DNA of 64,000 nt from Halobaculum sp. XH14 (lineage in GTDB: Archaea > Halobacteriota > Halobacteria > Halobacteriales > Haloferacaceae): contig NZ_CP134949.1 of NCBI RefSeq assembly GCF_032116555.1, positions 2,914,001 through 2,978,000 on the forward strand, read 5' to 3'. Every line of letters starts with the position of its first letter. The first letter of the stretch is position 1. The translations under genes and the position numbers were made by a program. A model generated the notes under the pieces. That model worked only from the letters and a program-made list of their open reading frames with translations, did not search any database and was not told where the DNA came from. This document shows, piece by piece, positions 28,984 through 50,720 of this stretch.

Positions 28984-29829
28984 CTACGACTCCTTGTCGG
29001 TGATCGATGCCGTGGATGCTTCCACGTATGCCGGTTCGAAGATGGTGTCCCAATCTTCACGGAAGATATCATCTTTTGCTTCGCGGACAATCTGTTGGGC
29101 ACCATCTGACAGAGGATATTCCACCTCGTCGAAGAGTATCGCCGATTCGATGCGCAAATGTCCCAGTACGAAGTCGCGAGCGGCCGCTTCGGGGACACCC
29201 ATTTCGACCGCTGTGTCGAGCCCTTCTCGGATGATCGTAAGACAGGTCGCAGTGAGTGTTTCCCCGAGAGCCGGTTCCAGGATGGCCATCTGCTCGGTGG
29301 TCAAACGATGGGCCTCGTCGACCGGGGCGTAGATGTCTCTCGCTATCGACTCCCCGACGTCGTAGTCCGATTCCGGCCCTTGTTCCAGCGCACAGACGAT
29401 GTTTTGTTCCGCCAGACCGCGTCCCCCGAAGAGGTCGGCCTGGGCCTCTCGGTCGGTTTCCGTTGCGAAGAGTTGCGGGTGACACGGATGGCTGATGAAA
29501 TACGTCACGTCGTCGCGTTCGTGCAAGACTCCCGCATGCGCGGCGGCGGGATCGAGTAGGAAGATGACCGTCCCTGCATCAAGGTGGGGAACTATCTCTT
29601 CGGTCAGGTCGCTGATTACCGTATCCGGAACTGCGAGGATCACGACGTCCGCCCCGGGGAGCGCCTCATCCTGGGACATCGGGGAGAGACCCCGTTCGGA
29701 AAGACGTTCGTGCCCTTCGGTACTCGGTTCGACACACCGGAGGTTGTAACTGGACACTCCGCCCAACTGGTCGACGATCCGGCATCCCATTTTGCCGCCG
29801 GCTCCCATGACTGTAATGGTGGTTGGCAT
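28984..29829 (-). CDS. PGDH-like NAD-dependent enzyme, D-apionate oxidoisomerase (ApnO) candidate
   Basis: A 281-residue protein with an N-terminal Rossmann motif GAGGKMG and a C-terminal all-helical domain of the phosphogluconate-dehydrogenase C-terminal type (EQMAILEPALGETLTATCLT; AARDFVLGHLRIESAILF). This architecture is what I recall for D-apionate oxidoisomerase, which converts D-apionate to 3-oxo-isoapionate. Two in-frame ATGs exist (29844 and 29829). The TATA-like box at 29857-29866 is about 27-32 bases from the second, so I chose 29829 (MPTTITVMGAGG). The RLP and DUF1537 kinase downstream in the island are the partners expected for this pathway. True 6-phosphogluconate dehydrogenase is unlikely: the protein is too short. 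Confidence 0.65.
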   Translation of the reverse strand: MPTTITVMGAGGKMGCRIVDQLGGVSSYNLRCVEPSTEGHERLSERGLSPMSQDEALPGADVVILAVPDTVISDLTEEIVPHLDAGTVIFLLDPAAAHAGVLHERDDVTYFISHPCHPQLFATETDREAQADLFGGRGLAEQNIVCALEQGPESDYDVGESIARDIYAPVDEAHRLTTEQMAILEPALGETLTATCLTIIREGLDTAVEMGVPEAAARDFVLGHLRIESAILFDEVEYPLSDGAQQIVREAKDDIFREDWDTIFEPAYVEASTASITDKES

Positions 29830-30007
29830 GACGATATCGTCCATTGACTCAACGGGTATTTATAATCTTGCGTTCCTCACAGCTCGACCCGCGAGTCTCG
29901 TACTGCTGCTGGCACATCCTCGGGCACCCACTCTCGACTGATTCGACCTCCACCGACCCTGTTCACCGGTAGATATAAATTCGAATCTTCGGATTTTCCG
30001 AACGGCA
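29830..30007. promoter_or_regulatory. Divergent promoter region between ApnO-like and GH127-like genes
   Basis: Two TATA-like boxes face away from each other: TATTTATAAT at 29857-29866 (for the minus-strand gene) and AGATATAAAT at 29971-29980 (for the plus-strand gene, about 30 bases before the ATG at 30008). Both would give nearly leaderless transcripts. The shared 178-base region suggests co-regulation. Confidence 0.6.
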
Positions 30008-31720
30008 ATGACTGACGACTCGCCGGCAGAGACGAAACAAGTACCGGATACGCTCCTCTTGGAGGATCACGCAAAGCTGGGACTGAACGCACTCACTGGC
30101 TACGTTGACCAGCGACGGGATCACATGCCCTATTTCTACGCCAATCTGAAGGCTGACCCGGCGAAACTGTGCCACTCCCGATGGGATTACGGTTCGTCCG
30201 TAGGTCGTCTCACATCGTCGTTCGCACTTGCACGAGAGATGACGAAGAGCGACGACGGGGCAGACGTGGAGGAGCGCCTCCGTGAGAAGCTCCTCGATTT
30301 CTTCGAGGATGACGGTCTCAACTATCGCCAGGGGTCGGAATCGTACGAAAAGGTCGCGAACATGCACGACCAACGCTCAGTGCTTCTCGGTCTGGTTGGG
30401 TGGGCCCTTTCAACCGACAGCGAGGAACCCCGTGAGGCCGCCGCAGATCTCTGTGCCGGTCTCAAGCGGATCGCAGAGAAGGGGAACAATCACGATGTCG
30501 ACAAGGATGACTTCTGGTACTTCCCTTCGGCCGAACATCCCCGTGGCGGCTGGCAAGCCGACGATATGATCTACCTCGGCATGTCGGTCGACCCTGCACA
30601 CACGAGCGCTCGCATGATCGACCCGCTCGTGAAATTTTACGAACTCACGGGCAATCAGGACGCGCTCGATCTGGCAGAAAACTTCGCCCGCCACACCGTC
30701 GAGTACAGTGGCGCCTTCAACGCCGACGGGAGCTTCAACGACGGCCACGAGTTCCGATTCGGTCACTTCCACAGTCGGACGGTCAGTGTCGCGTCCATTG
30801 CCCGCTACGGAGCCATCACCGGTGACGCGTCCTACCTCACTTGGGCGGAGAACATCTACGACTGGATCCTCGATCAGGGGACGGCATTCGGCTGGTTCCC
30901 GGGAGCACTCATCGAGACCAAGGCCCACCACCACGAAACCTGCACCCTCACCGACATCATCGAGATCGGTATCACGCTCGCACGGAACGGGTACGAGGAG
31001 TACTGGGACGACGTCGAGCGCTTCGTCCGAAATCACCTGGTCGAAACGCAACTCACGGAAAACGACTGGATCGTTGAGGGGGAGGAGTCGATGAACGACG
31101 AGGAGTGCGTCTTCACAGACGTTGGAGAGCGCTCGCTCGGGGCGTTTCCGGGATGGGCCGCTCCGCACGATTTCGTCTGTGACGTTGACCACATGAACGA
31201 CATCATGACGTGTTGTGTCGCCTCCGGCGTTCGCGGACTGTTCCTGGCGTGGGACAACGCCGTCACCGACGAAGGAGACCACCTCGCGGTAAATCTGCTC
31301 GTGAACCGCCAAACCGAGCAACTGGACGTCGAAAGTTACCTCCCCCACCACGGACGACTCGAACTCACAGCCAACGTCGATCTTGACGAGGTTCGTGTTC
31401 GCATCCCCCAATGGGCTGAGAATTCGGAGGTGCTGCTCGAGCGGGAGGATGACGAGCAGACCCCCGAATGGCGCGGGACGTTCGTCACCGTTCCCGACCT
31501 GGCAGAGGACGAATCCGTCACGATCACCTTCCCGGTCAAGGAACGGGAATCGACCGAAGCCGCCTGGAATCGTGACTTCGCCGTCGACTGGCGCGGAGAC
31601 TCCGTCCGCTCCATCTCTCCGTCGGGAACGCATTACCCGCTATACGCCGATCGAGAAGTGTACGACGACGTTCCGATGCGAACTGTCTCGACCGACCGTC
31701 GACGGACCTTCAGTTGGTGA
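30008..31720 (+). CDS. GH127-like glycoside hydrolase (beta-L-arabinofuranosidase/DUF1680 type)
   Basis: A 570-residue protein with a long alpha-helical barrel region (about residues 20-420) and a beta-rich C-terminus (about 430-560). In GH127 enzymes the catalytic zinc is held by a Glu-x-Cys pair and a Cys-Cys pair. Here they appear as Glu310 and Cys312 in HHETCTLTD, and Cys402-Cys403 in IMTCCVASG. No Tat or Sec signal is visible, so it should act in the cytosol on imported oligosaccharides. Beta-L-arabinofuranose and apiose are both furanosidic sugars, so a beta-apiosidase activity is conceivable, but that is speculation. It precedes the sugar transporter, with its own TATA-like box. Confidence 0.7.
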   Translation: MTDDSPAETKQVPDTLLLEDHAKLGLNALTGYVDQRRDHMPYFYANLKADPAKLCHSRWDYGSSVGRLTSSFALAREMTKSDDGADVEERLREKLLDFFEDDGLNYRQGSESYEKVANMHDQRSVLLGLVGWALSTDSEEPREAAADLCAGLKRIAEKGNNHDVDKDDFWYFPSAEHPRGGWQADDMIYLGMSVDPAHTSARMIDPLVKFYELTGNQDALDLAENFARHTVEYSGAFNADGSFNDGHEFRFGHFHSRTVSVASIARYGAITGDASYLTWAENIYDWILDQGTAFGWFPGALIETKAHHHETCTLTDIIEIGITLARNGYEEYWDDVERFVRNHLVETQLTENDWIVEGEESMNDEECVFTDVGERSLGAFPGWAAPHDFVCDVDHMNDIMTCCVASGVRGLFLAWDNAVTDEGDHLAVNLLVNRQTEQLDVESYLPHHGRLELTANVDLDEVRVRIPQWAENSEVLLEREDDEQTPEWRGTFVTVPDLAEDESVTITFPVKERESTEAAWNRDFAVDWRGDSVRSISPSGTHYPLYADREVYDDVPMRTVSTDRRRTFSW

Positions 31721-31924
31721 ACCGAGTGGATCTGAACGGACTCCCTCCAGTGGGGCCGGAGTCGCGATCTGTGGCCGTCCACTGATCCATTGCCACCTGT
31801 TCTGTCTCTCACAGCACACGGAACCCCCCGTCGTGAGTACCGGTGAAGAAATAGCAAGCAATCCGAATATTTATGAACGGTCATAATACTTATATGGGTT
31901 GCTATAGAGTACCAAGATGTAGCC

Positions 31925-33316
31925 ATGCAAGAGGATTCACCTCTTAGTCGACGTAGAGCACTGCAGGCAATGGTTGCCACGGGGGTTCCACTGGCCGCCG
32001 GTTGTCTCGGCGGAGGCGACGGCACCGAGACGCCCGACAGTTCCGGTGGAGGTTCAAACAGTGACGGCAACGGCGAATCGGATTCGAATGACAATCAAGG
32101 AGGCAACTCCAACACGGAGATCAACTTCTGGGCGAAAGAACCCTCTCTCGAGGAGTTTATCCGGGAGCTGGCGAACGATTACGATGGGGCGCAGGTGGAC
32201 ACCAGTATCGTCCCCGAAGCTGACCTCGCCACGGAACTCAACTCCGCCCGGGCGGCGAACACCCTTCCGAACGTCGTTCAGTCCGCGATGGTGACGGGCC
32301 AGTTGATGGTGGAAAACGACATCACCGCGAACGAGCAGGCGACCCAGATCATCGAGGATCTGGGGGAAGACGACTTTTACGATCAGGCGCTCGCTCTCGT
32401 CAGCGCACCTGACGGTGGGTACTTCTCCGTCCCACACAGTATCGACATTCAGACGCTCGGGTGGCGAACGAGCAAGTTCGAGGAGGTCGGTCTCTCGGAA
32501 CCGCCGACGTCGTGGGAAGGGATCGAGGCCGCAGCCGAAGCCTTCCACGATCCAGACAATGACGAGTACGGGATCGGGATCGGAAGCGCCCACCACCGCT
32601 TCACTCGGCAGTGTTTTCAGCCGATCGCGCTCTCGAACGGCGCGCGCGTGTTCAACGAGGACGGCGAGATCATCTTCGACAATCCGGAGATGGTCGAGGC
32701 GATCGAGTTCTACGCGATGCTCCAGAGCGAATACGGTATCCCCGGCGATCACGACCACGTGCCGGTGTTCAACGCCTACGTGGACGAAACCATTCACTTC
32801 CTGTCCTTCTCGTCGTACATCCTCGGGTTGATCACCGACAACGGTGGCGAAGAGATGGCGCGTGACACGAATGCTGCGTTCACGCACAGCTCCAGCAACG
32901 GTGAGGCGGCCGCGGGTAACGCGACGCTGTTCACCGTCTTGGACTCGAACGCACAATCCCAACTCACCGCCTCCGAGGGCTTCGTCGAGTACATGTACAC
33001 GGGCGATGCGTACGTGGAGTGGCTGCACGACAACCTGGGCGCGTTCGGTCCGACACGCAAGTCGGTCTTCGAGAGCGACGCCTACCAGGACCACGACAAC
33101 TGGGACATCTGGGAAGAGGATCTGCAGGAGCGACAAGAGGTAATGGATTCGACGCTCCAACGGTTCGGCATCGTTAACGGAACACCCCAGACTGGGATCG
33201 GCGCTATCACGAGCCAACTCCTGATCGCCGAAGCGGTCAGTCGAGCCATCGACGGCGAAAACGCGAGCGACGTCGCTTCAGAAGTTGCAGACAAGATGCG
33301 AAACGCTATAGAATAA
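31925..33316 (+). CDS. CUT1 sugar ABC transporter substrate-binding lipoprotein
   Basis: A 463-residue family-1 binding protein. The Tat motif SRRRALQAMVATG is followed by lipobox AAGC and a Gly/Ser/Asn/Asp-rich linker (residues about 30-65). The mature part has typical SBP_bac_1 segments such as YFSVPHSIDIQTLGWRTS and PPTSWEGIEAAAEAFHD. Binding proteins of this size usually take oligosaccharides or glycosides. A TATA-like box (31886-31896) precedes it. It begins a five-gene transporter operon. The neighbouring rhamnosidase and GH127-like enzyme make rhamnose- or pentose-containing oligosaccharides the likeliest ligands. Confidence 0.85.
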   Translation: MQEDSPLSRRRALQAMVATGVPLAAGCLGGGDGTETPDSSGGGSNSDGNGESDSNDNQGGNSNTEINFWAKEPSLEEFIRELANDYDGAQVDTSIVPEADLATELNSARAANTLPNVVQSAMVTGQLMVENDITANEQATQIIEDLGEDDFYDQALALVSAPDGGYFSVPHSIDIQTLGWRTSKFEEVGLSEPPTSWEGIEAAAEAFHDPDNDEYGIGIGSAHHRFTRQCFQPIALSNGARVFNEDGEIIFDNPEMVEAIEFYAMLQSEYGIPGDHDHVPVFNAYVDETIHFLSFSSYILGLITDNGGEEMARDTNAAFTHSSSNGEAAAGNATLFTVLDSNAQSQLTASEGFVEYMYTGDAYVEWLHDNLGAFGPTRKSVFESDAYQDHDNWDIWEEDLQERQEVMDSTLQRFGIVNGTPQTGIGAITSQLLIAEAVSRAIDGENASDVASEVADKMRNAIE

Positions 33317-33339
33317 AGACGTCCTCCCCCTATACTGCA

Positions 33340-34254
33340 ATGAACCTTATTACAAACGCGTTTCCGGTACTCGGAATCAGAAATCCGCGGAACATGACGA
33401 TCGAGGAAAAAGAGAAGTTCCTCGGTTATGCGCTCATCCTTCCGTCCATCCTCCTGGTGGGGATCGTGATCATCTACCCCCTGGTGTTCAACGCGTACCT
33501 CAGTTTTACCGAGGTGCCGTTGAACCCGGCAGAGTCACCAACGTGGGTGGGACTCTCGAACTATGACTCGCTCCTCCAGAGTTCCCAGTTCTGGGATTCA
33601 TTCAAAACGACGATCATCTTCACGTTCTTCTCGGACCTGTTCGCGCTGCTGATCGGATTAGCTGCCGGACTGCTGCTTCGGCGACAGTTTCGGGGAAGGC
33701 GGTTCGTCAGAGGACTCGTCCTGCTACCGTTCATCACGCCGGTGATCGCAGTGACGTTCACCTGGCAGTGGATGTTCGAACCCGTATACGGCGTCTTCAC
33801 GATGTTGTACACCACCCTCACCGGTGCGTCGACAGCTCCTGATATTCTCGGTCAAAGCGACACTGCGGTGTGGGTCGTTATCCTCTACAGCTCGTGGCGG
33901 TATTACCCGTTCGCCTTCCTGATGTTGATCGCCCGTCTCCAGGCGATTCCCGGGGAAATGTATGAAGCGGCGAAGATCGACGGGGCCAGTCGTTTCTCAC
34001 AGTTCAAGGACATCACGTTTCCCGAGATCAAGTACATCCTCGGAACCATCTTCATCCTCCGGTGGGTGTGGAACTTCAACACGTACGCGGACGTCTGGCT
34101 CGTCTCAAGCGAGGTGACGACACTGCCCATCTTCACCTATCAAACCGCATTCTCGACCTTCGAACAGGGCATGGCATCGGCCATCTCAATGATCCTGTTC
34201 GTGTTCTTGATGATCTTCGTGTTCGTTTACGTCTCGGTGGTGATAGAATGGTAA
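33340..34254 (+). CDS. CUT1 sugar ABC transporter permease, MalF/UgpA type
   Basis: A 304-residue permease with six hydrophobic helices and the EAA coupling loop EMYEAAKIDGASRFSQFKDI. It begins 23 bases after the binding protein. Its stop overlaps the next permease gene by 7 bases, indicating coupled translation. It forms half of the transmembrane channel. Confidence 0.9.
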   Translation: MNLITNAFPVLGIRNPRNMTIEEKEKFLGYALILPSILLVGIVIIYPLVFNAYLSFTEVPLNPAESPTWVGLSNYDSLLQSSQFWDSFKTTIIFTFFSDLFALLIGLAAGLLLRRQFRGRRFVRGLVLLPFITPVIAVTFTWQWMFEPVYGVFTMLYTTLTGASTAPDILGQSDTAVWVVILYSSWRYYPFAFLMLIARLQAIPGEMYEAAKIDGASRFSQFKDITFPEIKYILGTIFILRWVWNFNTYADVWLVSSEVTTLPIFTYQTAFSTFEQGMASAISMILFVFLMIFVFVYVSVVIEW

Positions 34255-35201
34255 ACGACGACGCCCAGACGGACGGGGGCCGATCGATCGAGGACGGATC
34301 GCCCCTCGCGACAGTACTCCACAACACCAGGTCCGCGTTCGCCATGGTGTTCAAGCGCCAGAGCATCGAGCAAAGCATCTGGGAGAAACTGGCGTTCTAC
34401 GCCGGAATCGTGGGCTTGCTCGTGTTCACGCTGTTCCCGTTCTACGTGATGCTCCTGACGAGCATTACCTCGAGTGCCGAACTCTACTCGATTCCGTTCG
34501 ACATCGTCCCGGAGACGTACACACTCGACCACTACAGCTACGTCCTGCTGTCCGAGGATTTCCCGTTCCTCACCTACTTCACCAACTCGTTCATCGTCGC
34601 CTCGGTAACGAGTGGTCTGGCGGTGATCGTCGCGACGTTCGGCGGGTATAGCTTCGCCCGACTCGACTATCCGGGACGGAAACTCATCGCTCGCCTCGTG
34701 TTGGTCGTCTACCTCTTCGGCGGGATCGTCCTCGTCGTCCCGCTCTTTCGCGTGATCGCCGCACTGGGCCTCATCGACACGCTGGGCAGTCTGATGATCA
34801 CCTATCTCGTCATCGTCTTACCGCTATCACTGTATCTCCTGGGGAACTACTTCAGGAGCATCCCCGAGGAGATAGAGGAGGCGGCCTTGGTCGACGGCTA
34901 CTCGCGATTGGAGACGATTTTCTACATTACGCTCCCGCTTAGCGCACCCGCAATCGTCGCCGTGTTCCTGTTCGCGTTCATCATCGCGTGGAACGATTAC
35001 TTGTTCGCGAGCATCTTCCTCGACTCCCCCGAGAAGTACACCCTCATCATCGGGGTCGAGTATCTGAACGTCCAGTACACGCGGGTTTGGGGTCGAATCA
35101 TGGCGGCATCGGTGGCGACGAGCGCCCCGATCATCGTCTTCTTCCTCTACCTGGAGAAGTACCTCGTCGAAGGACTTACCACCGGGGGAGTGGAGGGCTA
35201 A
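34248..35201 (+). CDS. CUT1 sugar ABC transporter permease, MalG/UgpE type
   Basis: A 317-residue permease with six helices and the EAA loop EEIEEAALVDGYSRLETIFY. The open frame extends upstream into the previous gene, but the ATG at 34248 (MVNDDAQTDGG) overlaps the previous stop and fits family length. The N-terminal cytoplasmic tail of about 45 residues is longer than in bacterial MalG, as is common in haloarchaea. It pairs with the MalF-type permease. Confidence 0.9.
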   Translation: MVNDDAQTDGGRSIEDGSPLATVLHNTRSAFAMVFKRQSIEQSIWEKLAFYAGIVGLLVFTLFPFYVMLLTSITSSAELYSIPFDIVPETYTLDHYSYVLLSEDFPFLTYFTNSFIVASVTSGLAVIVATFGGYSFARLDYPGRKLIARLVLVVYLFGGIVLVVPLFRVIAALGLIDTLGSLMITYLVIVLPLSLYLLGNYFRSIPEEIEEAALVDGYSRLETIFYITLPLSAPAIVAVFLFAFIIAWNDYLFASIFLDSPEKYTLIIGVEYLNVQYTRVWGRIMAASVATSAPIIVFFLYLEKYLVEGLTTGGVEG

Positions 35202-35205
35202 TCAA

Positions 35206-36372
35206 ATGAGCGAGGAGAAACACCAGTCCACGTTGCTCCAAGAACGGGACGGTGATGCATTCGAGTCGGGTGAGAGTGCCGCCGTCGAACTCGCTGACGT
35301 CAGGAAAGAGTACGGAGACATCGTCGCAGTCGACGACATCGATCTCCGGATCGAACCGACCGAGTTTTTCGTGTTACTCGGCCCGTCCGGCTGTGGCAAG
35401 ACGACCACCCTCCGAATGGTCGCCGGGCTCGAAACACCGACTAGTGGTCGTATCTCGATCGGGGACGAGGAGGTCACTGACATGCTCCCCCGCCACCGTG
35501 ACATCTCGATGGTGTTCCAGAGTTACGCGCTGTATCCACACAAGACCGTCAAGGAGAACCTCCGGTTTCCATTGAACAAGATGGATCTCTCGTCGGCCGA
35601 GAAAGCCGACCGAATCGCTGCAACGGCGGAGATGCTCGAGATAGACGACCTCCTCGAAAAAACTCCAGGGCAGTTGAGCGGCGGACAACGACAACGCGTC
35701 GCCGTCGGTCGGACCGTCGTCAGGGAACCGAGTGTATTCCTGATGGATGAACCGCTGAGCAACCTTGATGCCAAACTACGCGTCCAGACCAGGAGCGAAC
35801 TGCGACAACTCCAGCAGGAACTCGAGACGACCACGCTGTACGTGACCCACGACCAGGAGGAGGCGATGAGTCTCGCCGACCGGATGGCGATCATGAACGA
35901 CGGCGACATTGAACAGGTCGGGACGCCCCAAGAGATCTACGAGTCGCCGACGAACGCGTTCGTCGCTGGCTTCCTCGGGGAACCCGCAATTAACTTCCTC
36001 CCCGTGACCGATCGGACCGGAGGCAAGATCGTCGTCGGGAGCCTTCCCACAGGCGTGTTCGGAGATACGTTCCCGGTGGAGACAGAGCGGTTCGGCATCC
36101 GGCCAGAAGACATCGACGTCCTGGACTCCATGGACGGCGAGTGGGAAGACGTCGACGGGAAGAGCGCTCCCGTGGAGTTCACGGTACGATTCATCGAACC
36201 GCTCGGGAACTCATACGAAATCGAACTCACGAGAGAGGAAACCTCGTTGAAGGCTCACACTGTCGATCTGCCCGCCTCCGTCGAAGAGGGCTCGACAGTT
36301 CCGATCGTCTTCGACCTGCAGAACGTGCTCGCCTTCGATGCGAACGGCGATACCATCACTACGGAGGAATAA
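35206..36372 (+). CDS. Sugar ABC transporter ATPase, MalK/UgpC type (first of two)
   Basis: A 388-residue ATPase with Walker A GPSGCGKTTTLRM, Q-loop MVFQSYALYPHKTV, signature LSGGQRQRVAVGR, Walker B VFLMDEPLSNLDA and switch THDQEEAMSLAD, then a TOBE-type regulatory domain (from about residue 240). It starts 4 bases after the permease stop. The operon encodes a second full ATPase immediately downstream, so the transporter may use an ATPase heterodimer, or one subunit may serve another permease. Confidence 0.9.
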   Translation: MSEEKHQSTLLQERDGDAFESGESAAVELADVRKEYGDIVAVDDIDLRIEPTEFFVLLGPSGCGKTTTLRMVAGLETPTSGRISIGDEEVTDMLPRHRDISMVFQSYALYPHKTVKENLRFPLNKMDLSSAEKADRIAATAEMLEIDDLLEKTPGQLSGGQRQRVAVGRTVVREPSVFLMDEPLSNLDAKLRVQTRSELRQLQQELETTTLYVTHDQEEAMSLADRMAIMNDGDIEQVGTPQEIYESPTNAFVAGFLGEPAINFLPVTDRTGGKIVVGSLPTGVFGDTFPVETERFGIRPEDIDVLDSMDGEWEDVDGKSAPVEFTVRFIEPLGNSYEIELTREETSLKAHTVDLPASVEEGSTVPIVFDLQNVLAFDANGDTITTEE

Positions 36373-36375
36373 TCC

Positions 36376-37518
36376 ATGGCGAACGTCACTCTCGACGGGA
36401 TCACAAAGATCTACGACGACGCGAAAGGGACGGAAAGGGCGGTAGACGACATATCACTGGCGGTCGACGAGGGAGAACTCCTCGTGCTCGTCGGCCCGAG
36501 CGGTTGTGGAAAGAGTACGACGCTCCGGTTGATAGCCGGCCTCGAGGCCGTGAGTCAGGGGGCTATCGAGTTCGATGAATCCGAGGTCCAGACGCTGACC
36601 CCGAGCGACCGGAACGTCGCAATGGTGTTCCAGAACTACGCGCTCTATACGAAGATGACCGGCGAGCAGAACATCGAGTACGGGTTGAAACACTCGATGG
36701 ACATCCCGGAATCGGAACGGAAACGGCACGTTCACGAGACCGCTGAACTCCTCGGTATCGATGATCTCCTCGACGACCTGCCCGCAGAGATGAGTGGCGG
36801 ACAGAAACAACGAATCGCGCTCGCCAGAGCCATCGTTCGCGACCCTGCCGTGTTCTTGCTGGACGAACCGCTGAGTAACCTCGATGCGAAGCGGCGTGCC
36901 CAGATGCGGACCGAAGTCCAGCGAATTCACGAGGAGATCGATGTAGCCACGATCTACGTGACCCACGACCAGAAGGAGGCTATGACGATGGCCGATCGCC
37001 TCGCCGTCATGAACGACGGGGAAATCGAACAAATCGCACCCCCTGAGGAGGCCTATGACGACCCGAACAACCGCTTTGTCGCCACGTTCCTGGGTAGTCC
37101 GGCGATGAATGTTCTCGAGTGTGAAACGGAGCGACGTGGCGAGGAGGTGCAGTTGATCAGTTCGGCGAACAAGCGACCACTCCAGCACCTCCCGCGGGAA
37201 CTGGTCCCGGAGGAGTACGACCGGAGTCACCTCGACGTCGGTTTGCGCCCGGAGGACCTCAAGTTATCCACGGACACCAACGAGTACCCCGCGAACGCCG
37301 AAGTCGTCGTCTCCGAGTACCAGGGGAAGGAGAACTTCGTCTACCTCGACTTCGACGGCATCGAGTTGACCGTCCGAACCGGCGACGGTACCGATCTGCG
37401 GCAAGGAATGACGGTGAGTTTCACCGTCGCGCCGGCGAACGTCTACCTCTTCGACCCCGATTCGGGAACGTCCCTGAAGACGCGCTCAGCCGTGCGGGAA
37501 CCGGCGATCGTCGACTGA
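36376..37518 (+). CDS. Sugar ABC transporter ATPase, MalK/UgpC type (second of two)
   Basis: A 380-residue ATPase with all motifs intact: GPSGCGKSTTLRL, MVFQNYALYTKMTG, MSGGQKQRIALARAI, VFLLDEPLSNLDAKR and THDQKEAMTMAD, followed by a TOBE-type domain. It begins 3 bases after the first ATPase stop. It differs clearly from the first copy, so this is an old duplication and not a recent repeat. It ends the transporter operon, before a 370-base gap with an aldolase relic. Confidence 0.9.
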   Translation: MANVTLDGITKIYDDAKGTERAVDDISLAVDEGELLVLVGPSGCGKSTTLRLIAGLEAVSQGAIEFDESEVQTLTPSDRNVAMVFQNYALYTKMTGEQNIEYGLKHSMDIPESERKRHVHETAELLGIDDLLDDLPAEMSGGQKQRIALARAIVRDPAVFLLDEPLSNLDAKRRAQMRTEVQRIHEEIDVATIYVTHDQKEAMTMADRLAVMNDGEIEQIAPPEEAYDDPNNRFVATFLGSPAMNVLECETERRGEEVQLISSANKRPLQHLPRELVPEEYDRSHLDVGLRPEDLKLSTDTNEYPANAEVVVSEYQGKENFVYLDFDGIELTVRTGDGTDLRQGMTVSFTVAPANVYLFDPDSGTSLKTRSAVREPAIVD

Positions 37519-41590: not shown

Positions 41591-42466
41591 ATGGATATTG
41601 TCGTTACGGGCGCCGTTGGACAGACGGGGAGCTGGACCGTGGACCATTTCGCTGATATGGGATACGAGGTACTGGGCCTCGACCTACGGCGACCGCCTGG
41701 TGACCGGTCGAACGTCGATTTCCGTCCGGCAGACGTGACCGACCAGGGCGATGTCCTCGAATTCATCCTCGACGCTGACCCCGACACAGTGATTCACTTC
41801 GGGGGACTACGAAGCGATCGCGGCTCGGACAACGCGATCTTTCACACGAACGTCCAGGGGACGTACAACGTATTAGAAGCGGCCGGACGGACGGACGCGA
41901 ACGTGATCTGGGCCTCCAGCGAGGCCGCATACGGTCGGTTCCTCCCGGACAATCCGGTCGAATACCTCCCGATCGATGAATCACATCCGGTGCGACCGAA
42001 GAGACCGTACGGCACGTCGAAACTCCTCGGCGAAGAGGCCGGCAAAGCGGCGTCCAGACGATACGGGATTTCCGTCGTCTCACTGCGAGCGACTTACATC
42101 CGCTACCCCGGTGAGTACTGGACGGGGATACTCGAATCCGACGACGAAGATCGACTTGGCGAGTCCGGAAATCTCTGGAGCTACGTCGACATTCGCGACG
42201 TACTCGCCTTCATCGAGGCGGCCATCGAGACCGACCTCGACGGGCACGAGGCGTTCAACGTCTCTGCCGTCGATAACCGTGCCGGTGCCCCTACACGGTC
42301 CATCGTCAAAGCGATGTACGGTGACCTGCCCGACCGTTGTGACATCTCCGGCGAAGAGTCAATCTACTCGATCGAGAAGGCCCGCAACCTTCTCGATTGG
42401 ACGCCCGCGCACCGATGGCGGACCGCGGCTGAGGAGGAATCTTACACCCCCTCCTTCCTAGAGTGA
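41591..42466 (+). CDS. NAD-dependent epimerase/dehydratase (extended SDR), sugar dehydrogenase candidate
   Basis: A 291-residue extended SDR with VTGAVGQTGSW (GxxGxxG-type cofactor loop), DLRRP after the second strand (suggesting NAD), a serine in WASSEAAYG and the catalytic PYGTSK. Upstream ATGs at 41537 and 41576 exist, but a TATA-like box near 41561-41568 favours 41591. Relatives include uronate dehydrogenase and nucleotide-sugar epimerases. In this island an oxidation of free apiose, rhamnose or a uronate to its lactone would be sensible; the exact substrate is not readable from sequence. Confidence 0.75.
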   Translation: MDIVVTGAVGQTGSWTVDHFADMGYEVLGLDLRRPPGDRSNVDFRPADVTDQGDVLEFILDADPDTVIHFGGLRSDRGSDNAIFHTNVQGTYNVLEAAGRTDANVIWASSEAAYGRFLPDNPVEYLPIDESHPVRPKRPYGTSKLLGEEAGKAASRRYGISVVSLRATYIRYPGEYWTGILESDDEDRLGESGNLWSYVDIRDVLAFIEAAIETDLDGHEAFNVSAVDNRAGAPTRSIVKAMYGDLPDRCDISGEESIYSIEKARNLLDWTPAHRWRTAAEEESYTPSFLE

Positions 42467-42934: not shown

Positions 42935-45900
42935 ATGCCATCTCCTCCCCGGATATCGGAACGTCCAACGGTCATCGCTCCGAAAGTAGAGTACGAGAGG
43001 GCACCGAACAACGTGGTTCCCAGCGAACCGCGATTTTCGTGGCAGGCGAACGCCGACCGGCGAGGAGTCGTCCAGACTGCATATCGGGTCATCGTCGGCC
43101 GGACGAGAGACGATGTCGTAGAGAAACGGGGGTCACTCTGGGATTCGGGGAAAGTGGACGGATCCGATTCGACGTCCGTCGTGTACGACGGTGTTCCCCT
43201 GGAGGCGGACAGCGACTACTACTGGAGGGTGCGGATCTGGGACGAGGACGACCGACCCTCGAAATGGTCCGACCTCTCCAGCTTCTCGACTGCGCTCTCC
43301 GGCGAGCACGAGTGGGATGGCGAGTGGATCAGCTACCAACCGGGCGCCGGCGACTCGAACGGCTACCGGAGTCGCTGGCATCCCGCCACCAAGGACCCCG
43401 AGGAGTGGGTACAGGTCGACCTCGGTGAGTCGCGTCCGATCACGCGGATCGAACTCCATCCGGCGTCGCCGTGCGACGGTCCGGAGACGCCCGATGGCGT
43501 GGTGGTCTCGAACGTCTACTCGATCGACGATGACCTTGAGAGCGGTCCCAGGGGATTCGGGTTCCCCGTTCGCTACCGGATCGAGGTTTCGGACGACGAG
43601 ACGTTCGCCCAGTCGAGCGTCGTCGTCGACAGAACCGAGGAGGCGCAAGCGAACCCGGGGACCGATTCGCGCTCGTTCGACGTGAACACGACCGCACGGT
43701 ACGTCCGGGTCGTTGCCACCGACCTGTACACGTTCGATCCGGCGACTCCTCCAAGAGACCGGTTTGGCCAGCTACGGACCGAGTTTGCCCCGGAGGCCTA
43801 CGGGTCGTGGCAGACCTTCGCCCTCGCCGGCCTCGGAGTGTACAACGGCGGTGAAACCGACGTCGCAGCCGACCGGCCGGTGACCGCATCGTCCAGTGTC
43901 GAGCGAGAGGGGTGGGGCCGATCCAACCTCGTCGACGGATGGTACGCGTCGCGGACGGCGGCCGCCTCACCGCTGTTTCGGACCGACGTGGCGCTCGATG
44001 GAGATGTCGTACGTGCCAGAGCGCACGTCTGCACGCTCGGGTACGGTGAACTGTATGCCAATGGCGAACGAGTGGGTAACGAGGTTCTCAACCCAGGGTG
44101 GACCGAGTACGACGAGCGGGCGCTGTACAGCACGTACGACCTCAGTGAACACCTCGAAGCGGGCGAGAATGCACTGGGCCTCTGGCTCGGGCGGGGATGG
44201 TTCTCGAAGAACGCGCAGGGATGGACGGGCTTCGGTTCGCCGCGTGCCCTCCTGCATCTGACCCTCGAGTACGCGGACGGTTCGACCCGGACGATCGGGA
44301 CCGACGAGTCGTGGACGGCGACGGAGAGCCCCATCGTCGAACACGACCTCTACGATGGCGAGCGGTACGACGCCCGCCTGGAACAGCCGGGATGGACGGA
44401 ACCAGATTTCGACGGCGAATGGGAGTACGCGACGGTCGTCGAGGGCCCGGACGGGGAGCTCACACCCCAGCGACTCCCGCCGATCCGCGTGACGGAACAG
44501 ATCGATCCGGTTGAGGTTCACGACCACGAGAAGGGCCCGATCTTCGATTTCGGCCAGAACCTCGTCGGCTGGGTGGCGATCAACGTACACGGCGCTGACG
44601 CCGGCGACGAGATAACGATTCGGCACGCAGAGACCCTCCTGGACGATGGAAGTCTCGCGATGGGAGATCTCCGAACGGCCGACGCGACGGACACCTACGT
44701 CGCTGCCGATTCGAGCCGGGCAACTTACCGACCTCGATTTACGTACCACGGATTCAGATACGTGCAGGTGTCGAACTACCCGGGCGATCTCTCGACGGAC
44801 GACCTACGCGCACACGTCGTCCATTCCGATCTCGACCGGATCGGTTCGTTCGACTGCTCGAATACGGACCTCCGTCAAGTGCAACGGAACGCGATGTGGG
44901 GCCTTCGGGGTAACGTACACAGCGTCCTCACGGACTGTCCACAGCGCGACGAACGGTTCGGCTGGACCGGCGATAACCACATCGCCGGCCGGTCACTGAT
45001 GTTCAACTTCGACGCGGCGCTGTTTTACGAGAAGTGGATGAACGACCACGCTGACGTCCAGTCGGACCACGGCTACGTGGCGGACACGATCCCGTACGGC
45101 TATGGATCTACGCCAGAAGACCCGACCTGGGGCATCACGCAGGTCACCATTCCCTGGCACCTGTACCGGCACTACGGTGACCGTGGCGTCCTCAAGCGTC
45201 ACTACGAACGGATGCGTCGGTACGTCGACTACTGGGATGAACAGTCGAACGACGGGATCATTCCCGACAAGTACGGGAAATACGGTGACTGGCTCGCGTT
45301 CGAAAACGCCGACGGGCGACGGGGACTGCCGTTCGACCTGTTCAATAGCGCGTTCCATTACCACACGACGAATCTGTTCGCGAAGATAGCGACGACGCTC
45401 GGAAACGAGGCTGACGCCGCCACGTATCGACGGCGCGCAGAACACATCGCTGACGCCATCAACAACGAATTCTTCCGAGCTGATGAGGCGCGGTACGGAC
45501 CTGGAACGCAAGCATCGTACACGGTTCCGCTGTTCGTGGGACTCGTCCCGGACGAACACGTGAACGACGTCGCCACGCGGTTGGCTGAGACTGTCCGTTC
45601 GGACGGTTGCAAACTGAAGACCGGCTTCCTCGGCACACGTCCGCTCCTCCATACCCTCGTCGACCATGGGTACGAGGAGATCGCCTACGAAGTCGTGAGC
45701 CAACCGGAGCAGCCCGGATGGGTGTACATGGTCCGGCAGGGCGCGACGACGATGTGGGAGCGCTGGGACTCGGACTCCCGGATCGGTTCCGGGATGAACT
45801 CGTTTAATCACTCTCCGTTCACGTTCGTCTCCGAGTACCTCTACGAGGCGATCGCCGGACTCCGACTGGGCGACGATCCAGTCACTGACCATGCGACGGT

Positions 45901-46225
45901 CGCACCGACGCTCGTTGACGCCCTCGACTGGGCCGAAGGGCAGGTGGAGACGCCCAACGGCGAGTTCACGGTGGCCTGGGAGCGGACTGACTCCGACCGG
46001 GGATACGAACTCTCCACGACAGTCCCATGGAACACGACCGCAACGGTTCGCCTGCCCGGTGCGGCTGACTCGCTCGTCACCGAGTCCGGCACGCGACTCG
46101 CTGGGACGACCGGTGACGTTCCGGACGGTATCGACGCTGTTCGCCAAGAGGAGGGCGATCTCGTCGTCGAAGTCGGTTCCGGGACGTACCAGTTCGCCGT
46201 TGAATCGGAGCAGCCCTCCCGCTGA
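42935..46225 (+). CDS. Alpha-L-rhamnosidase, glycoside hydrolase family 78
   Basis: A 1096-residue enzyme releasing terminal L-rhamnose. The N-terminal fibronectin/Ig-like region has FSWQA, QTAYRVIVG and LWDSGKV (residues about 30-75). An inserted discoidin-like segment (VQVDLGESRPITRIELHPAS, about 157-300) could bind carbohydrate. The next beta domain has GYGELYANGERVG, then an (alpha/alpha)6 barrel with DCPQRDERFGWTGD at residues 667-680, Glu673 being the likely general acid, and Glu942 in TTMWERW the likely base. A beta-sandwich closes the protein. No Tat or Sec signal is present, so it probably acts on imported rhamnosides. TATA-like box at 42901-42910; nearly leaderless start. Confidence 0.92.
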   Translation: MPSPPRISERPTVIAPKVEYERAPNNVVPSEPRFSWQANADRRGVVQTAYRVIVGRTRDDVVEKRGSLWDSGKVDGSDSTSVVYDGVPLEADSDYYWRVRIWDEDDRPSKWSDLSSFSTALSGEHEWDGEWISYQPGAGDSNGYRSRWHPATKDPEEWVQVDLGESRPITRIELHPASPCDGPETPDGVVVSNVYSIDDDLESGPRGFGFPVRYRIEVSDDETFAQSSVVVDRTEEAQANPGTDSRSFDVNTTARYVRVVATDLYTFDPATPPRDRFGQLRTEFAPEAYGSWQTFALAGLGVYNGGETDVAADRPVTASSSVEREGWGRSNLVDGWYASRTAAASPLFRTDVALDGDVVRARAHVCTLGYGELYANGERVGNEVLNPGWTEYDERALYSTYDLSEHLEAGENALGLWLGRGWFSKNAQGWTGFGSPRALLHLTLEYADGSTRTIGTDESWTATESPIVEHDLYDGERYDARLEQPGWTEPDFDGEWEYATVVEGPDGELTPQRLPPIRVTEQIDPVEVHDHEKGPIFDFGQNLVGWVAINVHGADAGDEITIRHAETLLDDGSLAMGDLRTADATDTYVAADSSRATYRPRFTYHGFRYVQVSNYPGDLSTDDLRAHVVHSDLDRIGSFDCSNTDLRQVQRNAMWGLRGNVHSVLTDCPQRDERFGWTGDNHIAGRSLMFNFDAALFYEKWMNDHADVQSDHGYVADTIPYGYGSTPEDPTWGITQVTIPWHLYRHYGDRGVLKRHYERMRRYVDYWDEQSNDGIIPDKYGKYGDWLAFENADGRRGLPFDLFNSAFHYHTTNLFAKIATTLGNEADAATYRRRAEHIADAINNEFFRADEARYGPGTQASYTVPLFVGLVPDEHVNDVATRLAETVRSDGCKLKTGFLGTRPLLHTLVDHGYEEIAYEVVSQPEQPGWVYMVRQGATTMWERWDSDSRIGSGMNSFNHSPFTFVSEYLYEAIAGLRLGDDPVTDHATVAPTLVDALDWAEGQVETPNGEFTVAWERTDSDRGYELSTTVPWNTTATVRLPGAADSLVTESGTRLAGTTGDVPDGIDAVRQEEGDLVVEVGSGTYQFAVESEQPSR

Positions 46226-46334
46226 CTGCGCCCAAGACACGCCTGAACGATGGTTGTGGGCGATCCGTTCGGATCTTCGAGCCGGATACCCCCTCGCTTT
46301 ATTAGAATCCATCTCTCGTGTCTATCCGTCTGTC

Positions 46335-47636
46335 ATGAGCGAACAGTATGGACACGAACGCGAGTTCGTTCGAACGTTCTTCACGTCTCCGACCGCGGTG
46401 AAGGGGGAGGACGACTCCGCCAAGATGATCCGCAGCGCGGCCGGACTCCGCGGGCTCCAGGCCCCCGACGTCTGGGTCCCCGACAACGAGGACGCGACCG
46501 CGCCCGCCATGCGTGAGGAGGGCGTCGAGAACATCGTCGAGGTCGTCGCCGAGCACGGTGCCGAGTTCCCCGGCGAGATCCACCCCCGCGTCGTCTGGCA
46601 CCGCGACAGCCCCACCACGCGTCACTCGGGGTTCCAGCAGATCATGGAGATCGCCGACCCCGACAACGGCGCGGTCGAGCACGTCGACGGGTTCGTCATT
46701 CCGGAAGTGGGTGACGTCGACGACTGGAAGAAGGCCGACGAGTTCCTCACCATCGTCGAGACCGAGCACGGACTGGAGGAGGGGAGCCTCTCGATGTCCG
46801 TGATCGTCGAGAGCGGCGAGGCCGAACTCGCCATGGCCGACCTCCGCGAGGAGATGGGCAAGCCCTCGAACAATCTCGAACGGCTGTTCATGCTCGTCGA
46901 CGGCGAGGTCGACTACACCAAGGACATGCGGGCGATGACGCCGACCGGCGAACTGCCGCCCTGGCCCGAACTCCGGCACAACACCTCCCGCGGTGCCAGC
47001 GCCGCCGGCCTGATCGCCGTGGACGGCCCGTACGACGACATCCGCGACGTCGAGGGCTATCGCGACCGGATGCGGGACAATCGGGCCAAGGGGATGACCG
47101 GCATCTGGTCGCTGACGCCCACACAGGTCGAAGTGGCGAACACCGACCCGCTCCCGCCGACAACCGGAAGCTGGCTGCTCTCGGTCGGGGACGACGAGGT
47201 CGACCTCCCCGCCGAGGGCGACCGGGCCGTCTACGACGGCGAGGACCTCTCGCTGGCGGAGACCGACGACGGGTACGTCCTGGGTGTCGACGGCGACGAG
47301 CACGAACTGGACGCCGACGGCCTGCACGAGGAACTGCTCGACCGCATCTCGTACGTGCCGAGCATGGACGACATCGTCGACTCGATGGAGGAGTTCGAGG
47401 CCGCAAAGGAGGCGGGCAGGGGCGCGATCGCCATGACCCAGTCCACGACGCTCGTCCTCGACGGCGTCGAGGTGGCGTTCAGCACGGATCGGATGTGGGA
47501 CGAGGCGACCTACCAGGCGGCCCAGACGCCGATCACGCTGTTCCAGGACGTCTACGAGCACCGACCCGACCAGCACGCGGAACTCGAGGAGATGTACGGC
47601 CCCGACGTCGTCCAACGGGCGAGGAACCTCGGATAG
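46335..47636 (+). CDS. aceB: Malate synthase, haloarchaeal type
   Basis: A 433-residue protein matching in length and sequence the atypical short malate synthase of haloarchaea, which condenses glyoxylate and acetyl-CoA to malate and CoA. Recognisable blocks are VRTFFTSPTAVKGEDDSAKM, VWVPDNEDATAPAM and SLSMSVIVESGEAELAMAD. The frame is open upstream into the rhamnosidase gene, but the ATG at 46335 lies about 34 bases after a CTTTATTAG TATA-like box. No isocitrate lyase is in the window. Its neighbour is a glycolate/D-lactate oxidase, so glyoxylate is more likely to come from glycolate. Codon GC is higher than in neighbours, suggesting a core-type gene. Confidence 0.9.
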   Translation: MSEQYGHEREFVRTFFTSPTAVKGEDDSAKMIRSAAGLRGLQAPDVWVPDNEDATAPAMREEGVENIVEVVAEHGAEFPGEIHPRVVWHRDSPTTRHSGFQQIMEIADPDNGAVEHVDGFVIPEVGDVDDWKKADEFLTIVETEHGLEEGSLSMSVIVESGEAELAMADLREEMGKPSNNLERLFMLVDGEVDYTKDMRAMTPTGELPPWPELRHNTSRGASAAGLIAVDGPYDDIRDVEGYRDRMRDNRAKGMTGIWSLTPTQVEVANTDPLPPTTGSWLLSVGDDEVDLPAEGDRAVYDGEDLSLAETDDGYVLGVDGDEHELDADGLHEELLDRISYVPSMDDIVDSMEEFEAAKEAGRGAIAMTQSTTLVLDGVEVAFSTDRMWDEATYQAAQTPITLFQDVYEHRPDQHAELEEMYGPDVVQRARNLG

Positions 47637-47687
47637 TTCCGTCCCCGGGAGGCGATGCCGGTCCGCTCGACGATCAGCAAGTCGGTA

Positions 47688-50600
47688 TCAAACGATCGCT
47701 TCGTGAACCTTCTCGATGGGATGAGACACGCGCTCACCGTATCGGTCGTCGAGTTGTGTCCGACATGATGCCCCCGGTGCCACGACGCTCTCACCCGGAC
47801 TTCGGTCCACCTGGTCGTACAGGATCCGTCCGATGGCCTTCGAGAGGTCGTAGTGTTCGGCCTCGTATCCGAAGGAGCCAGCCATGCCACAACAGCTGGA
47901 GTCGAGGGAGTCGACTTCGTATCCGACCGCCCGTAACACCGCTGCGGTGTGGTGGTCGCGGTTCAACGCCGACTGGTTGCAGTGGCCATGGTACGTGAGG
48001 TGTTCTCCGGACACACGGAACTCGATCTCGTCGTACACTCGATACGTGTTCAGGTACTCACATATCCCGTAGGCGTTCGCGGAGACGGTCCGAACGTCCC
48101 CGCCGGAGAGTAGGTCGAGATACTCGTCCTGGAACATCGCCGCATCCGACGGCTCGACGAAGACGACCGACCATCCATCCTCGAGGAAGGGTGCCAGCGC
48201 GTCGACGTTAGTCGACGCCCGGTCGCGAGCCTCGTCCAAGAGACCCATCGAGAACGCCGCTCTTCCGCTCGGTTCGACTTCACTGGGAGCGAGGACTCGA
48301 ACGTGGACGTTTGCCTCCTCGAGGACGTCCACGGCGGCCTTTCCGGGTTCGGGGTAGCTGTAGTTCGTGTACGTGTCCGGAAACAGGAGGACTTTGTCGC
48401 TCGAGGCATCGATCGAGACACGGTTCTCGCGGGACCGCGCCCAGTCGACGAATGTCTCTCGCCGAAACGTGGGCGTATCGCGCTCGGCTGCGATACCGAA
48501 CAGCCGTTCTCCGAGGAAGTCGGCACCGGGAAGCTGTTGCATCCAGTTCGAGAGCGGCGCGAGGTTGCTTCCGATGGCACTGACTCGGTCGACGTTGGCA
48601 AACAGTCGCTCGCGAACCGTGCGTCCCGCCTCCTGATGGTATTCGTGTTTCACTTCAGCCTTGAGTTTCGCCAGGTCGACACCGGTGGGGCAGTCGCTCT
48701 TACAGCCCTTACAGCCCACGCAGAGGTCCAGGACCTCCGTCTGGAATCGTTCGGAGTACAGTTCCGATTCAGGGAGTTCCCCACTGATCGCAGCGCGGAG
48801 AAGGTTCGCCCGGCCACGCGTCGTCTGGATCTCCTCGTTGGATGCACGGTAGGTCGGGCACATGACGTCGCTACCCGTCTGGCGACACGTCCCGCATCCG
48901 TTGCAAAGTTCGACGAGATCGGAGAACCCACCTTCGTCGGTGAAATCGAGCGTCGTCTGTGGCTCAAGCGACTGATAGTCCGCGCCATACCGGAGGTTCT
49001 CGCGCATGTCGGCACCGACGCCACGTTCGGAGTCCGGCCCGATGTCATCCGGCCCGTCGCGGTAGACGACGTTACCAGGATGCATGTCCCATCCGGGATC
49101 GAAGGCTGTCTTGACCGCCTTGAACGCTGCCCAGAGATCTTCACCGTACATCTTGGGATTGAATTCGGTGCGAGCCATCCCGTCGCCGTGTTCGCCCGAG
49201 AACGCACCGTGGTGTTCGAGTACCAGGTCAGTCACGTCTTCGGTGATCGAGTGCATCGTCTCGATGCCCGCCTCCGTCTTCAAGTTCAGAACGGGGCGGA
49301 TGTGAAGCGTTCCCGACCCAGCGTGGGCGAAGTAGGCAGCCGAGGTACCGTGGGTGTCGAGGACGGCTTCGAACTTCTCGACGTACTCGGCCAATTCGGC
49401 CGGCGGGACCGTCGCATCTTCGATAAACGGGTACGGCTTTGGGTCCCCTTCGAGTGACATGAGTAGAGGGATGGCCGCTTTTCGCAATTTCCAGATGTCG
49501 GCCTGGTCCTCGTCGGTGTACGCTTCGACGACATCGAACGCGTTACCGTCATCGAGAAACCGTTCGTTGGTCGCGGCGATGGCCGCCTCGAAATCGTCGT
49601 GGAGTTCCGAGTCGTACTCGAGCATCAAGGCGGCCGCCGTTCCTTCAGGTAGGGGTTCGACGTACTCGGCATACCCGTCCGACTCGGAGGCGAGCCGGAA
49701 GACCTCATCGTCCATCAGTTCGACGGCGCTGACGTCGTACTCCAGGGCGACCGGAACCGCCTGCATCGCCTTGACCAGATCGTCGAAACAGTACAAAGCG
49801 AGCGTCGTCGCCTCGGGCACGGTCACCAGTGAGATCTCGGCTTCGACGATGACGCCCAGCGTGCCTTCTGCGCCGACGAACAGTTTCGCGAGGTTGATCA
49901 CCTGCTCGCCGTCTTCGTTCTCGTAGATCACCCGGTCGAGATTGTAGCCGGACACGCGGCGTTTGAGTTCGGGGTAGCGTTCGGCGATCTCTTCTTCATT
50001 GTCCTCGACAAGTTGGCGAACGGTCTCGTACACGTTGGCCTCACGGTCGTCTTTCCCGACGATGTGGTCGTATTCCTCGCTATCGATGACGACCTCACGG
50101 GCGTGGAGGAGGGTACCGTCGGAGAGCACGGCCTTCACTTCTTCCGTATACGCGTCGGTGATGCCATAGCGCACGGAGTGTGCACCGGTCGAGTTGTTGC
50201 CGATGCCGCCACCGACGGTCGCACGATTCGACGAGGCGGGGTCCGGCGCGAACTGTAGTCCGTGCTCGGCCAGCACCGCGTCGAGGTCGTCCTGGACGAC
50301 GCCCGGTTGGATCCTCGCTCGCTGCTCGTCGGGGCGAACGTCGAGCACCTCGTTCATGTGTCTGGACATATCAAGGATGACACAACCCGGGCCGACAGCC
50401 TGACCCCCGAGAGATGACCCCGTTCCCCTTGGCATCACCGGGACATCGTGGTCCGTCGCTACCTCGACTGCCGTCTGCACGTCCTCGACCGAGGTGGGAT
50501 AGACGACGCCGGCGGGCCGAGACTGGTAAATGCTGCCGTCCGTGGCGTAGAGAATTTGTGCGTATTCGTCGAAGCGAACGTCACCGGCAACTGCGGCTCC

Positions 50601-50720
50601 GAGGTCAGTCGCGAGCGCCCGATACTCCGGAACGACATCGTCGACTTCACGATCGAGATCTGAAGGATTGGCCGGCGATTCTACTGGCTGTACCGACGGC
50701 TCTCGCTCTTGGGCGCCCAT
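47688..50720 (-). CDS. Fused FAD/Fe-S oxidase: glycolate or D-lactate dehydrogenase (GlcD-GlcF type)
   Basis: A 1010-residue protein. Residues about 60-290 form the FAD-binding PCMH domain (MPRGTGSSLGGQAVGPG; TVGGGIGNNSTGAHS), about 300-560 the FAD-oxidase C-terminal domain with the SGEHGDGMARTEF block, then two 4Fe-4S motifs (CNGCGTC from Cys606 and CVGCKGCKSDCP from Cys667) and C-terminal CCG domains (SCCGMAG with Cys943-Cys944). This combines GlcD and GlcF in one chain and would pass electrons to the membrane quinone pool. Convergent with malate synthase, it would turn glycolate into glyoxylate. D-lactate is the main alternative substrate. Confidence 0.85.
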   Translation of the reverse strand: MGAQEREPSVQPVESPANPSDLDREVDDVVPEYRALATDLGAAVAGDVRFDEYAQILYATDGSIYQSRPAGVVYPTSVEDVQTAVEVATDHDVPVMPRGTGSSLGGQAVGPGCVILDMSRHMNEVLDVRPDEQRARIQPGVVQDDLDAVLAEHGLQFAPDPASSNRATVGGGIGNNSTGAHSVRYGITDAYTEEVKAVLSDGTLLHAREVVIDSEEYDHIVGKDDREANVYETVRQLVEDNEEEIAERYPELKRRVSGYNLDRVIYENEDGEQVINLAKLFVGAEGTLGVIVEAEISLVTVPEATTLALYCFDDLVKAMQAVPVALEYDVSAVELMDDEVFRLASESDGYAEYVEPLPEGTAAALMLEYDSELHDDFEAAIAATNERFLDDGNAFDVVEAYTDEDQADIWKLRKAAIPLLMSLEGDPKPYPFIEDATVPPAELAEYVEKFEAVLDTHGTSAAYFAHAGSGTLHIRPVLNLKTEAGIETMHSITEDVTDLVLEHHGAFSGEHGDGMARTEFNPKMYGEDLWAAFKAVKTAFDPGWDMHPGNVVYRDGPDDIGPDSERGVGADMRENLRYGADYQSLEPQTTLDFTDEGGFSDLVELCNGCGTCRQTGSDVMCPTYRASNEEIQTTRGRANLLRAAISGELPESELYSERFQTEVLDLCVGCKGCKSDCPTGVDLAKLKAEVKHEYHQEAGRTVRERLFANVDRVSAIGSNLAPLSNWMQQLPGADFLGERLFGIAAERDTPTFRRETFVDWARSRENRVSIDASSDKVLLFPDTYTNYSYPEPGKAAVDVLEEANVHVRVLAPSEVEPSGRAAFSMGLLDEARDRASTNVDALAPFLEDGWSVVFVEPSDAAMFQDEYLDLLSGGDVRTVSANAYGICEYLNTYRVYDEIEFRVSGEHLTYHGHCNQSALNRDHHTAAVLRAVGYEVDSLDSSCCGMAGSFGYEAEHYDLSKAIGRILYDQVDRSPGESVVAPGASCRTQLDDRYGERVSHPIEKVHEAIV

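Follow-up and report, generated by a model that had tools for sequence, protein, structure and literature searches.

What does a haloarchaeon do with a RuBisCO-like protein (RLP) encoded next to an acid-sugar kinase, a sugar importer and two glycosidases? The question is raised by a stretch of 64,000 nucleotides on the main contig of Halobaculum sp. XH14 (G000:C1:2914001-2978000), hereafter the window, in which an earlier note had recognised an island around the RLP and read it as a D-apiose/D-apionate pathway. From the gene content, families, co-occurrence and residue conservation observed here we infer all substrates and reactions proposed for this organism. As a tentative explanation of the whole, we suggest that the island serves the catabolism of rare branched plant sugars, probably released from pectic oligosaccharides of the rhamnogalacturonan-II (RG-II) type. 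The genes that carry the argument are:

28984-29844, minus strand: PGDH_C protein, ApnO-like, a predicted D-apionate oxidoisomerase (PF16896)
30008-31720, plus strand: divergent GH127-type glycosidase (PF07944, 5e-7, and fold)
37889-38548, plus strand: Asp/Glu-racemase-like protein, a candidate carbonyl-shift isomerase (PF01177)
38654-39916, plus strand: RLP of the OiaT/OiaX family, a predicted transcarboxylase/hydrolase of 3-oxo-isoapionate-4-phosphate and its homologue (OiaX model, structure 3nwr, clade and residues)
39913-41292, plus strand: DUF1537 acid-sugar kinase, OiaK-like (OiaK model, adjoins the RLP gene)
42935-46225, plus strand: GH78 alpha-L-rhamnosidase (PF17389, 364 bits; 6i60, 630 bits)

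The PGDH-type, DUF1537 and RLP genes on which the apionate reading was built are intact open reading frames, and their families were confirmed by models. The RLP, the sole RuBisCO-family gene found in the genome, scored 496 bits against the NCBIfam OiaX model (NF042437, cut-off 700), 244 bits against Pfam RuBisCO_large and 404 bits against structure 3nwr. Assignment to MtnW of methionine salvage or to form III RuBisCO was rejected (at most 200 and 268 bits, respectively, versus 496), and the RLP is of the OiaX/OiaT type by its scores, as had been proposed. The NCBIfam hits include no OiaT model, and for this reason the name OiaX alone cannot decide the reaction. The kinase matches OiaK much more closely (NF042436, 457 bits, cut-off 700) than the next best model, 3-oxo-tetronate kinase (184 bits), or threonate kinase (73 bits). 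The PGDH_C protein (181 bits with PF16896; closest solved structures 5t57 and 3c24) shares 48% identity with the ApnO-like protein encoded by a rhizobial cluster for apiose, and it combines its domain with an OiaK/RLP context that lies nearby in other haloarchaea and about 9 kb off here. The kinase ATG (39913) overlaps the RLP stop codon as ATGA, the racemase-like gene (37889) immediately precedes the RLP, and 8.8 kb separate the RLP from the start of the ApnO-like gene, which lies upstream on the opposite strand. The island of the earlier note stands as to its genes; it needs correcting for the distance and opposite strand of the ApnO-like gene and for the racemase-like gene, which had gone unmentioned.

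An OiaX-type RLP was found in 10 of 394 haloarchaeal genomes (461-515 bits, other RuBisCO-family genes reaching at most 196 bits). The kinase adjoins it in nine of these ten and lies 9 kb away in the tenth; among all RLP loci 14 kb or more in length, it is adjacent in 80 of 88. Seven of the 394 genomes encode an ApnO-like PGDH_C protein, and six of the seven are RLP genomes, always with the gene on the RLP's contig, giving 6/10 RLP genomes versus 1/384 others (p ~3e-10, without correction for relatedness). Because of this adjacency and co-occurrence, the association of RLP, kinase and ApnO is not due to chance, and the link of the ApnO-like enzyme to the other two is borne out. The RLP and kinase very probably act on a branched 3-oxo acid, and apionate is a rather likely substrate. 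A kinase and RLP working on an unrelated acid sugar, such as a tetronate or pentonate oxidised by a Zn-dependent dehydrogenase or SDR protein of the window, the ApnO-like gene then being a chance presence, would agree with those bacterial RLP-kinase pairs that lack ApnO and racemase-like genes and stand beside SDR, aldo-keto reductase, BKACE and TRAP genes; the skewed distribution of ApnO among haloarchaea and the far better match of the kinase to OiaK than to tetronate or threonate kinases make it highly improbable.

Several side observations concern these loci. Genome G122 (L157:7657-10910) encodes an OiaK-like kinase, an ApnO-like protein and a protein resembling class I aldolases, with no RLP match, and also, judged by eye, a GntP-like permease. 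Directly upstream of one RLP, L032:8935-9741 encodes a 268-amino acid protein with no Pfam match, which has look-alikes in L035 and L037; in L124 a hypothetical gene occupies the same position.

Is apionate then the only substrate? In a sample of 76 bacterial RLP loci (each 14 kb or longer), selected as the nearest to the window's RLP, ApnO was present in 39, the racemase-like gene in 17 and both in 3. RLP/kinase loci fall into two main contexts, the second mostly without ApnO: 36 loci with ApnO and no racemase-like gene (ApnO-type), and the 17 with a racemase-like gene (racemase-type). ApsD-like (19/36) and ApnL-like (21/36) genes were seen in ApnO-type loci only. The GH127 superfamily was represented in 12/17 racemase-type versus 0/36 ApnO-type loci (p ~2e-8, loci taken as independent), GH78 in 7/17 versus 0/36 and GH137-like genes in 5/17 versus 0/36. 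On the RLP tree, loci of both types are intermingled, which a single RLP chemistry common to the two contexts would lead one to expect. A third context, RLP and kinase with a BKACE-family gene and aldo-keto reductases and no ApnO, was noticed in L127, L133 and L142.

The window's island combines the two main contexts, having an ApnO-like gene together with the racemase-like, GH127-like and GH78 signature of the second; a substrate besides apionate is therefore probable, and may even be the principal one. A plain apionate (apiose) pathway, with ApnO-like, OiaK-like and RLP enzymes in series and the GH78, GH127-like and racemase-like proteins serving other plant glycans, for example apiosylated flavonoid rhamnosides, would be in keeping with the dominance of ApnO, ApsD-like and ApnL-like genes in one class of bacterial loci, and with the several haloarchaea in which the ApnO-like gene adjoins the RLP-kinase pair (in Halalkalicoccus along with a GntP permease). 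We nevertheless regard it as rather unlikely, as GH127-type and GH78 genes occur in none of the 36 ApnO-type loci, so that their presence here needs another reason, and the window yielded no homologue of ApsD or ApnL. The apionate link of the earlier note is retained; apiose itself is less sure than apionate, since neither an apiose dehydrogenase nor an apionolactonase nor a binding protein of the apiose type was found in the window.

The proteins of the second context give some indication of what else may be consumed. In the racemase-like protein, C75 and A182-Q183 are invariant in 28 homologues, and the second cysteine site of two-cysteine Asp/Glu racemases, placed by motif equivalence, is occupied by Ala in 28/28. 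Its model (pLDDT 95.6) has the fold of Asp/Glu, hydantoin and allantoin racemases, at 11-19% identity among the best 50 fold matches, and our guess is that it is an isomerase. Its use as an RLP-specific marker was rejected, the family being wider than RLP loci. L165 and L166 hold a kinase, a class II aldolase and the racemase-like gene with no RLP; there the aldolase may take the place of the RLP.

In the GH127-like protein, E310-T-C312 and C402-C403 are invariant in 8 sequences, residues that we take to be the equivalents of those of HypBA1. Although its model is of moderate quality (pLDDT 66), the top 21 fold matches are all GH127/GH146 proteins, BT_1003 among them, and the protein thus joins the Zn-cysteine site E-x-C ... 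C-C to a GH127 fold. The window's form also occurs in Firmicutes, Streptomyces plasmids and haloarchaea, and some other bacteria have a divergent one. We found it on 2 of 72,556 plasmids, each time beside RLP, kinase and GH78 genes, and in 2 of 388 haloarchaeal genomes, the window's own and G347. Upstream of the RLP in several bacteria lies a GH127 gene whose product is nearest to BT_1003 (5mqo, 809 bits), and the GH137-like proteins of bacteria and of G347 are nearest to 5mt2, 5mui and 5muj, which are presumably BT0996. BT1003 has been termed an aceric acid hydrolase (PMC10850190), and the GH137 domain of BT0996 is the first enzyme acting on RG-II side chain B (PMC9843283). Contig C11 of G347 carries homologues of ten island genes together with GH137-like, GH106, two GH29, GH2, BNR and GH88-like genes. 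The second context therefore points to RG-II side chain B. From known chemistry, isomerised aceric acid would be the methyl homologue of 3-oxo-isoapionate, with CHOH-CH3 replacing CH2OH, and aceric acid is a possible, if doubtful, second substrate.

Several observations weigh against this explanation. Both RLP and kinase score under their curated cut-offs, and the ApnO-like gene does not adjoin the RLP and is on the other strand. The window was searched for apiose dehydrogenase, apionolactonase, GH137 and GH2 genes and yielded none of them. The locus counts ignore shared ancestry: only 5 phylogenetically independent pairs could be formed on the tree and no test reached 0.05, GH127, GH137 and GH2 differing mostly in the expected direction where such pairs differ. 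The racemase-like family also occurs without an RLP, beside alpha-glucosidases and other glycosidases or in the company of a kinase and class II aldolase, and a pectic cluster of Rufibacter, met in the plasmid search from GH127, has a BT_1003-like GH127 and no annotated RLP within 15 kb. Finally, no growth on pectin or rhamnogalacturonan was obtained with haloarchaea that carry pectinolytic genes (PMC9726719), and haloarchaeal growth on pectin in liquid was marginal or nil (PMC12343721).

Like the RG-II degradation loci of Bacteroides thetaiotaomicron (BT_1003 GH127, BT0996 GH137), racemase-type RLP loci carry BT_1003-like GH127, GH137-like and GH78 genes, to which G347 adds GH106, GH29 and GH2; the window, unlike them, has only the divergent GH127-like and GH78 genes, and no RLP is known to us from the Bacteroides loci.

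How the RLP would act on such substrates involves two further genes of the island:

46335-47636, plus strand: malate synthase AceB of haloarchaeal type, an extra copy (NF041315, 832 bits, above cut-off)
47688-50720, minus strand: FAD/Fe-S 2-hydroxyacid (glycolate/lactate) dehydrogenase, glcDF-like (FAD-oxidase_C, FAD_binding_4, Fer4, CCG)

Cleavage and decarboxylation had both been considered in the earlier note. In a tree built from 111 sequences, with SH-aLRT as its only support measure, the haloarchaeal RLPs form one clade (100) outside the OiaX-labelled clade (100, long branch). RLPs of Ancylobacter, which we take to be of the same family as Xanthobacter, share a wider clade with them (93, in a tree without the Xanthobacter OiaT). 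By our own mapping to plant RuBisCO numbering, E60, N123 and H327 are intact in 13/13 haloarchaeal RLPs and in nearly all remaining RLPs of the set, versus D, G and Q in 9/9 RLPs of the OiaX clade. The window's RLP retains E60, N123, K175, K201, D203, E204, H294, R295, H327 and K334, the exception in the RuBisCO catalytic set being K177 (S/N instead), and we infer that retention of this set defines OiaT. The name OiaX is accordingly doubted for its low score, separate clade and E/N/H residues. Decarboxylation and transcarboxylation/hydrolysis have been reported for the RLPs of Agrobacterium K84 and Xanthobacter (PMC6302742).

The island shares its RLP-kinase-ApnO set with the rhizobial OiaX apiose pathway, whose RLP, unlike the window's, has D, G and Q at the three positions and is ~44-48% identical. 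Some rhizobial OiaX loci also hold triose-phosphate-isomerase-like and RpiB genes alongside, neither of which turned up in the window. None of the ten haloarchaeal RLP genomes has RpiB, and transketolase has no match in the window's genome and only short partial matches in 6 of the ten; erythrose-4-phosphate would therefore be hard to use. Pyruvate kinase and enolase genes adjoin the RLP-kinase pair at one haloarchaeal locus and thus fit a 3-phosphoglycerate product. The aceB stretch 46354-47622 (1269 bp) is identical to a stretch near C1:1636642-1637910, inside another aceB of the same genome. The identity ends in divergent flanks, a pattern that would fit gene conversion or a recent duplication; this second copy is likewise beside a glcDF-like gene, and an isocitrate-lyase match lies 0.4 Mb away.

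Clade, residues, lack of RpiB and transketolase, the pyruvate kinase and enolase neighbours and aceB beside glcDF-like genes together favour a transcarboxylase/hydrolase, and it is likely that the RLP forms 3-phosphoglycerate and glycolate, the latter passing to malate. A 3-oxo-isoapionate-4-phosphate decarboxylase yielding L-erythrulose-1-phosphate, as in OiaX, has the best curated model on its side; with a score under the cut-off, a position outside the OiaX-labelled clade, conservation of the residues that are changed there and a genome without RpiB, it is improbable. Against the glycolate route, a glcDF-like protein is encoded in 146/146 haloarchaea sampled; its linkage to the RLP is not specific and was rejected as specific evidence. 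The use of glycolate proposed in the earlier note is plausible.

The island's CUT1 importer, two glycosidases, AceB and glycolate/lactate-oxidase-like gene are all present. The importer genes, together spanning 31925-37518, and the remaining gene of the island are:

31925-33316, plus strand: CUT1 lipoprotein solute-binding protein (PF01547)
33340-34254, plus strand: CUT1 permease (PF00528)
34344-35201, plus strand: CUT1 permease, uncertain start codon (PF00528)
35206-36372, plus strand: ABC ATPase of UgpC/MalK type (NCBIfam NF008653, 398 bits)
36376-37518, plus strand: ABC ATPase of UgpC/MalK type (NCBIfam NF008653, 407 bits)
41591-42466, plus strand: SDR epimerase/dehydrogenase of extended type (PF01370; 52% homologue on the G347 RLP contig)

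In the pathway that we propose, the importer would bring in oligosaccharides, to be cut intracellularly by the GH78 and GH127-type enzymes, in neither of which a signal peptide was noticed. The ApnO-like protein would oxidise and rearrange apionate to 3-oxo-isoapionate. In what is the weakest step, a second branched acid, aceric acid being the most likely candidate, would be converted to the homologous 2-hydroxy-3-oxo acid with the aid of the racemase-like protein. The kinase would place a phosphate on the terminal hydroxyl, and the RLP would, in RuBisCO-like fashion, decarboxylate its substrate to an enediolate, transfer the carboxyl to the neighbouring carbon, hydrate it and cleave the C-C bond, giving 3-phosphoglycerate with glycolate, or with lactate from the aceric homologue. 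Glycolate would be oxidised by the FAD/Fe-S enzyme and then condensed to malate by the extra AceB.

The D-apiose/D-apionate pathway with OiaT was reportedly described by Carter et al. 2018, and Xanthobacter autotrophicus has been named for it (PMC6302742). Like that pathway, the island has the ApnO, OiaK and RLP families, 3-phosphoglycerate and glycolate as would-be products, and an RLP that keeps RuBisCO catalytic residues and branches outside the OiaX clade. Unlike it, the island belongs to an archaeon, has racemase-like, GH127-like and GH78 genes and an extra aceB, and shows within the window neither ApsD nor ApnL nor an importer of the apiose type (a comparison made without the Xanthobacter sequence).

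The flanks of the island hold four further genes:

25317-26351, plus strand: Zn-dependent sugar/polyol dehydrogenase (ADH_N/ADH_zinc_N)
26549-27754, plus strand: enolase-superfamily acid-sugar dehydratase, L-rhamnonate dehydratase-like (NF011968, 259 bits, cut-off 393)
51587-52345, plus strand: IclR regulator (PF01614; 62% homologue on the G347 RLP contig)
52459-53316, plus strand: FAH-family hydrolase, 2,4-didehydro-3-deoxy-L-rhamnonate hydrolase-like (NF053535, 221 bits, cut-off 500)

The Zn-dependent dehydrogenase has a homologue in G347 (64-68%), 3.8 kb from the RLP there. Haloarchaea degrade L-rhamnose by a diketo-hydrolase pathway, which the rhamnonate dehydratase-like and FAH-family genes on either side of the island resemble; both are under their cut-offs, and that pathway needs no RLP or kinase. 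The two genes perhaps form a rhamnose pathway fed by the GH78 enzyme. An amidohydrolase-family gene follows at 53423.

Our search of the literature available to us found no description of such an RLP/kinase island in archaea and no dedicated paper on aceric acid breakdown, for which, to our knowledge, there is no established route. A new aceric acid pathway in several bacterial phyla and haloarchaea, with the same kinase and RLP also serving apionate, is a speculative extension that we think unlikely at present: GH127 would free aceric acid from RG-II side chain B, the one-cysteine racemase-like isomerase would convert it to a 3-C-carboxy-5-deoxy-pentulose, the kinase would phosphorylate C1 and the RLP would split the phosphorylated product into 3-phosphoglycerate and lactate. 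If true, our explanation would place a RuBisCO-like transcarboxylase/hydrolase in haloarchaeal carbon catabolism, offers a concrete proposal, open to test, of how aceric acid is broken down and suggests that one RLP chemistry may serve two homologous branched acids.

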